DNA of 48,660 nucleotides from Bacteroidota bacterium. GTDB taxonomy: Bacteria > Bacteroidota > Bacteroidia > Bacteroidales > Paludibacteraceae. The number at the start of each line of letters is the position of its first letter. Position 1 is the first letter of the stretch. A program made the position numbers and the translations under genes. The notes under the pieces were generated by a model. The model saw only the letters and a list, made by a program, of their open reading frames with translations. It was not told where the DNA came from and made no database searches. Of this stretch, positions 37,215 through 40,130 are shown piece by piece. Where the stretch lies: assembly GCA_030706465.1 (NCBI GenBank), contig JAUZOM010000006.1, positions 1-48,660 of the forward strand. Direction: 5' to 3'.

Positions 37215-37925
37215 TCTGGTGATGGTTTTTAATGGTTTAACAAACTTATATTCAATTTCGTCCGGTAATGAAACTATTAAACTGTCGTGAATAATTAATT
37301 GCAAGAAGGAGCCTGGATCTCTATGAGTTGAAGCCAGCCTGTATTCGAGTGAAAAATACAAATCTCATTCAGCTAAAATCCTTAAATTAAATCAGATGTT
37401 ATAAACTAATCAGATAGTCAGAAGCAAAAATAAGGTTTATAAATTAAACTTAACTATTTATTAATAAAAATTATAACAACGATCTGTATTTGTTAAAAGA
37501 TAATGCAGGCCTTTTTTGTGGTTTTAGAGATGAGTAAAATCCTTATTTTTATTGTCGGATCCTTTTTCTTCAGGATTGGCATACATAAGTAATGCGAACA
37601 CTGTAATGTCGTATTTATAGTTGTCACAATAAGGTATAGAACGCCGATTTACGCTAAATAAGCGGATTAAAGAGGAATTTTATTCGGTAATTCGGAATCG
37701 AAGATCAAGGTAGTGAATGATTTGTTTGTTACAGCTAAGTGGTATACTGTTCGCAAAATGCTGCCCGAAACCAATCCGTTTTTTGTTGAATAATCCGTTT
37801 TAATCAATTAAACCGTTGTAAATGCGCGTTCTGTTTTGATTATCTCAAAGCAACAAGTATTGAGAGGGGTTTTCTTGCGAATTTTGGGAAGGAAGCACTT
37901 TTCTGAAGGTCCCCATCTCTGAACG

Positions 37926-38097
37926 CAGTCTGTGCTCAGTCTTATTCCGGTTTAAGTATAGAGGGGGTTCAGTTAGGGTTCAGTTAGGGTTCAGTTAGGG
38001 TTCGGATAGGGTTCGGATAGGTAAACCTAATCGAACCCCCTCGAAACCCTCTCGAAACTCCCGTTGAAATGTCTCTATACCGAAACTGAAATAAGTC
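37926..38097. repeat. Intergenic 11-bp-repeat palindromic element (element 2)
   Basis: Five contiguous 11-mers at 37966-38020 (ggttcagttag x3, ggttcggatag x2), then opposite-strand 11-mers (gggttcgatta, gggtttcgagg, gagtttcgaga) at about 38027-38063; outer inverted ends ggtttaagtatagag / ctctataccgaaac. Confidence 0.85.

Positions 38098-38411: not shown

Positions 38412-40130
<1,719 letters not shown>

Follow-up and report, generated by a model that had tools for sequence, protein, structure and literature searches.

Several known systems resemble, each in part, the locus described here. RUP, an IS630-Spn1-related MITE of Streptococcus pneumoniae, and the Correia/NEMIS repeats are small non-coding intergenic sequences with terminal repeats like those of insertion sequences, with TA at their ends and with a strong fold-back potential (PMC2229807, PMC3049150). 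The BOX repeats of the pneumococcus and S. suis have a variable number of tandem boxB modules flanked by end modules that are constant, and one internal module can occur with end modules of different kinds (PMC3049150). Foldback transposons (FB, Galileo and Tetris) are described as having inverted arms of tandem repeats of variable length and as being often non-autonomous (PMC4079207, PMC3573991). Template switching can correct quasi-palindromes, a documented process that makes the two arms of a hairpin alike (PMC8794818).

The DNA analyzed was a single stretch of 48,660 nucleotides, hereafter referred to as the window. The original prediction had placed in it five tandem 11-mers, followed closely by opposite-strand 11-mers and enclosed by an outer inverted pair, in an ORF-free gap upstream of pyrG. 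We recovered all of these elements. The five tandem units lie at 37966–38020 exactly as described, the opposite-strand units follow just past the array, and the outer pair consists of GGTTTAAGTATAGAG and CTCTATACCGAAAC (Table 1). The gap lies between an ORF for an M16 peptidase on the minus strand, which reaches 37361, and pyrG, which begins at 38517 and is identified by CTP_synth_N; the two genes are divergently placed. TRF detects a period of 11 at 37965–38014 with 94% matches. The two-unit pattern GGGTTCNNNTAGGGTTCNNNTAGG has four occurrences, all of them within the array, and none was obtained in 100 dinucleotide shuffles. When folded as RNA, the array strand reaches −62.2 kcal/mol, compared with −43.3 kcal/mol for 200 shuffled sequences (z −4.1); folded as DNA, it is also more stable than its shuffles (n = 200, z −3.2). 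The array is real and not a product of chance: as no shuffle reproduces the pattern and dozens of homologous copies exist, the reading of a chance low-complexity tract retains a negligible probability.

Table 1. Position of the palindromic features identified in the window.
Feature	Position	Strand	Description
Candidate left terminal repeat	37586..37611	+	TAAGTAATGCGAACACTGTAATGTCG; resembles the IS630-type ends of congeners
Outer left palindrome arm	37940..37964	+	Ends GGTTTAAGTATAGAG
Array arm	37965..38019	+	Five 11-bp units GGGTTNNNNNA: CAGTTA x3, then CGGATA x2 towards the apex
Palindrome apex	38020..38027		GG-TAAA-CC
Opposite arm	38028..38060	−	Three 11-bp units: CGATTA, TCGAGG, TCGAGA (minus-strand reading)
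Outer right palindrome arm	38061..38095	−	Contains CTCTATACCGAAAC
Second palindrome	25163..25389		AT-rich, 11-bp period; ~100-bp arms, 76% complementarity

Judged by sequence comparison, the array represents a single, worn copy of a high-copy intergenic repeat, present in dozens of copies in the window's genome, that we term family 1. The original prediction had not recognised this high copy number. The array used as a query against its own genome gave 62 blastn matches spread over many contigs, and a three-unit pattern matched 166 times in the same genome. Forty copies, once oriented, follow a common plan: an outer arm, an array of GGGTTNNNNNA units, an apex of the form GG-N4-CC and an opposite arm. 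Every copy forms a long, imperfect palindrome in which the 11-bp unit is strictly kept, with 3–8 units in the array arm and 1–4 in the opposite arm; the stretch equivalent to the outer left arm of the window copy is 11-bp periodic in other copies. Within the unit, positions 1–5 (GGGTT) and 11 (A) are near-invariant and positions 6–10 are variable. The spacing between AGGGTT motifs was 11 in 61 of 63 cases for the part of the window's genome that was sampled; the corresponding figures for the two other genomes that carry the repeat are 32 of 38 and 28 of 30. Copies occupy unrelated intergenic gaps. In Paludibacter sp. STB_57, one of these two genomes, 75% of the loci is coding, yet not one of 47 copies has an overlap with an ORF of 100 aa or longer. 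No gene-length ORF was found across the palindromic core of family 1. A right domain of ~180 bp, ending in ...CCACCTACTTA, is common to the copies of the window's genome; 22 of them can be aligned through to the right end, with a mean column identity of 87%. On their left side, these copies show several alternative domains.

In combining 3–8 units with a conserved right domain, family 1 has the module layout of BOX, a likeness of layout from which we claim no membership. The modules of BOX greatly exceed 11 bp in length. Moreover, they are not described as inverted palindrome arms (PMC3049150). Like foldback transposons, family 1 has long inverted arms that consist of tandem repeats. Foldback transposons are, however, eukaryotic elements with arms of up to kilobases, the Tetris repeats being of ~220 bp, and Galileo belongs to the P superfamily and not to IS630/Tc1.

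The repeat has a narrow distribution. When 48 genomes of the genus were searched with the three-unit pattern, matches were obtained only in the window's own genome (G000, the 166 mentioned above), in Paludibacter sp. STB_57 (G005, 119 matches) and in AM-2014_bin-3998 (G008, 28 matches); there were none in the 45 other congeners or in 392 other Bacteroidales genomes. Homologous elements, the absence of which from related genomes had been proposed as the mark of a chance tract, are thus present in many copies in two related species. A stricter apex pattern was run against 84,980 species genomes, a set that may omit records of the window's own genome, and matched only Paludibacter sp. STB_57 and AM-2014_bin-3998, at the same loci as in G005 and G008, respectively. 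A total of 120 stretches of viral contigs matched the pattern, most of them once, and none of the 80 scanned contained a palindrome with an 11-bp period. No paper dealing with repeats of this kind in Paludibacter, or with palindromes of 11-bp units, was found in the literature searched. The carriers represent a small clade of uncultured Paludibacter-like bacteria. In a pyrG tree the three are monophyletic (support 1.0) and their sister, G016, is without the repeat, which would place the origin of the repeat on one branch, subject to the tree being built on one gene and on incomplete MAGs.

Regarding mobility, IS630-type elements of the congeners end in TAAGTAATARGAATAATATAATGTCG and similar sequences. 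We built an end matrix from these ends and took as cut-off the 99th percentile of random stretches. Among the 40 copies of the window's genome, the left end exceeds the cut-off in 17, the right end in 15 and both ends in 8, when 0.4 would be expected per side; 23 copies are missing a recognisable left end. IS630-like terminal inverted repeats are accordingly a feature of family 1 in this genome. In the window, the top score of the whole 48.7 kb (22.4, the runner-up being 14.1) corresponds to the candidate terminal repeat at 37586, and the feature extends outward beyond the array originally noted; the matrix found no right end for this copy. TA is present at both ends in most two-ended copies, a result that is partly built in, since the matrix itself begins with TA; no empty site came to light. 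One copy adjoins a fragment of an IS630-type DDE_3 transposase. This fragment is all that was found of a partner transposase in the window's genome, with none in STB_57 or bin-3998, and no full-length IS630 transposase of its subfamily was detected in the three carriers; intact relatives of the fragment are present in congeners without the repeat. Mobilisation by an IS630-type transposase is supported in the window's genome and only suggested in STB_57 and bin-3998, because the IS630-like ends are weak and mostly unrecognisable in these two.

Family 1 can be compared with RUP and Correia/NEMIS, being like them intergenic, non-coding and able to fold back, with IS-like ends and, in most of its two-ended copies, TA at the ends. 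It differs from them in length, as its two-ended copies span ~520–740 bp and those repeats ~107–155 bp, and in its core of 11-bp units, tandem arrays not having been described for them. We interpret the array, with its dispersed copies of one layout and variable unit number, their end similarity and their restriction to one clade, as probably the left arm of a worn copy of a mobile element that is non-autonomous, a MITE whose core resembles a foldback. An IS630-type transposase provided in trans would have spread this element into TA sites. If this is so, family 1 brings to the small mobile repeats known from bacteria a foldback-like layout in which the arms consist of short tandem units, and its origin could be placed on the tree, in the carrier clade. 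As a separate observation, the IS630-type transposase is apparently split into two frames at a T/A run at three loci of congeners (L078, L080 and L081), which suggests a programmed frameshift.

A different mover would be implied if the repeat were REP/BIME-like, that is, if a Y1 (RAYT-type) transposase mobilised the intergenic palindrome through its hairpins in single-stranded DNA. Dispersed intergenic palindromes are what such a system leaves, each of the three carriers has Y1_Tnp genes, and many of the palindromes outside family 1 are, as REPs are, without a flanking domain. Nevertheless, the carriers have 7, 10 and 6 Y1_Tnp genes, which is not clearly above the 0–6 of non-carriers, an 11-bp-period palindrome was found at none of 11 carrier Y1 loci scanned, and family 1 has IS630-like ends. 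We consider this origin improbable. The Y1_Tnp counts and the 11 loci do not support a RAYT partner for the palindromes. One of the 11 loci had hairpins of another kind. In STB_57 (L448, 600–1280), a locus with a Y1 transposase contains three copies of a different hairpin, ACAACTCCGTAGGAGTTG, as expected of REP/RAYT.

The location of the array had implied a link to pyrG, which comparison with other genomes did not sustain: congeners conserve only ~140 bp upstream of pyrG, from ~38374, and the copies, as stated above, sit in unrelated gaps. Regulation of pyrG was rejected, as the array is outside this conserved leader and no promoter or terminator signal is conspicuous nearby. In more general terms, the repeat might be a structured regulatory RNA or a transcript-end element (terminator, attenuator or mRNA stabiliser), kept for its effect on neighbour genes. 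The strength of the predicted hairpin and the intergenic position of the copies would agree with such a role. Against it, there is no Rfam match at the array, no site in its surroundings looks like a terminator or a strong promoter, the array is not part of the conserved pyrG leader, the orientation of copies with respect to neighbouring genes is unbiased (12/12/9/6), and covariation in the right domain is close to nil (it is seen in 3 of 24 pairs, with a covariation term of +0.5). A conserved RNA in the right domain is thus not supported. A regulatory RNA is an improbable explanation of the repeat; the copies may have a secondary effect on transcripts.

We then consider the turnover of the units. 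Arrays change faster than their flanks. The two copies with the most similar right domains (97.8%) have the same opposite arm and arrays of 5 versus 3 units, and almost no array string is common to two copies. A change in copy number on one arm, as originally proposed, holds across copies, both in this closest pair and in the unequal ranges of the two arms. The other arm, originally described as drifted, follows a pattern common to the family in the window's genome and is not a local accident. With respect to the likeness of the arms, 34 of 116 right units in STB_57 recur in the left arm of the same copy, versus 14.2 after shuffling; the sharing is marginal in the window's genome (p 0.044), and the bin-3998 copies, a small set, do not show it. 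Subfamily structure or descent could account for part of the signal in STB_57. Native hairpins of STB_57 are more stable than chimeras (−66.1 versus −61.7), the native form being the more stable in 29 of 41 cases, and in the window's genome native hairpins are no better. A strict pairing register between the arms was not supported in the unit-sharing test.

Slippage together with template switching fits the turnover of the arrays. In the mobile element that we favor, replication slippage would alter the array in whole-unit steps, with the arm folding back and pairing again at an offset of one unit, and template switching from one arm to the other would keep the arms of one copy alike. The similarity of the arms within a copy is what is also seen in quasi-palindrome correction, which is, however, a mutational mechanism and not an element family.

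The 11-bp period is not confined to family 1. The second palindrome of the window (Table 1), which the original prediction had not noted, has about a dozen copies in the same genome. Its AT-rich interior differs from that of the array upstream of pyrG, whereas in its outer units it resembles this array. The gap that contains it also contains a 32-bp inverted pair (25670–25701/25864–25895), 91% complementary and 162 bp apart. We performed a sequence-blind scan for palindromes, in which those with an autocorrelation lag of 11 or 22 were counted. It found 17 in 427 kb of the window's genome, 21 in 600 kb of STB_57 and 9 in 158 kb of bin-3998, that is, 47 in 1,185 kb of the carriers and none in 794 kb of the non-carriers G015, G016 and G048; these densities are not genome-wide rates, since the carrier contigs were picked for known family-1 matches. 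The family-1 motif is lacking in 14 of the 47. By blastn, the links of which may be spurious among AT-rich palindromes, three of the 14 join family 1 and the remaining 11 fall into four further groups. Palindromes without the motif, which were not selected for but could cluster with family-1 copies, thus number 14 in 1,185 kb versus 0 in 794 kb, a contrast of modest numbers. When 110-bp windows were analyzed, the lag seen most often among strong self-matches was 11 in each of the three carriers, and this lag was absent in the three non-carriers. The other palindromes of this period in STB_57 showed no obvious flanking domain.

A clade-specific process by which long palindromes, whatever their sequence, are built or maintained in constant increments of 11 bp is a tentative idea that we regard as rather unlikely. 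If true, it would amount to a new repeat-making mechanism and not to one inherited repeat, with unrelated foldback groups sharing about one helical turn. For a worn mobile element, the shared period would reflect either descent with turnover of units or such a clade-specific process, its step being one helical turn. Some plasmid centromeres contain 11-bp iterons, in which a protein reads one face of each helical turn. An array bound in this manner, one face per turn, by a DNA-binding protein that organises the chromosome would account for the fixed 11-bp spacing, for the invariant GGGTT and A, and for a period common to palindromes of different sequence. The unit, however, is not common to the different palindrome groups, nothing comparable is present in three congeners, the arms are inverted and variable, and no candidate protein was identified; a binding array is therefore very unlikely. 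That different palindromes have the same period raises the question of whether arms grow by the helical turn or a protein reads each turn. In STB_57, short-period runs such as TTTGAAAGGTTTGAAGAG and GTTGATTAGTTAATTGG (L249, ~363; L259, ~2414; L263, ~13939) adjoin some palindromes or lie in their neighbourhood, at 400 bases or less.
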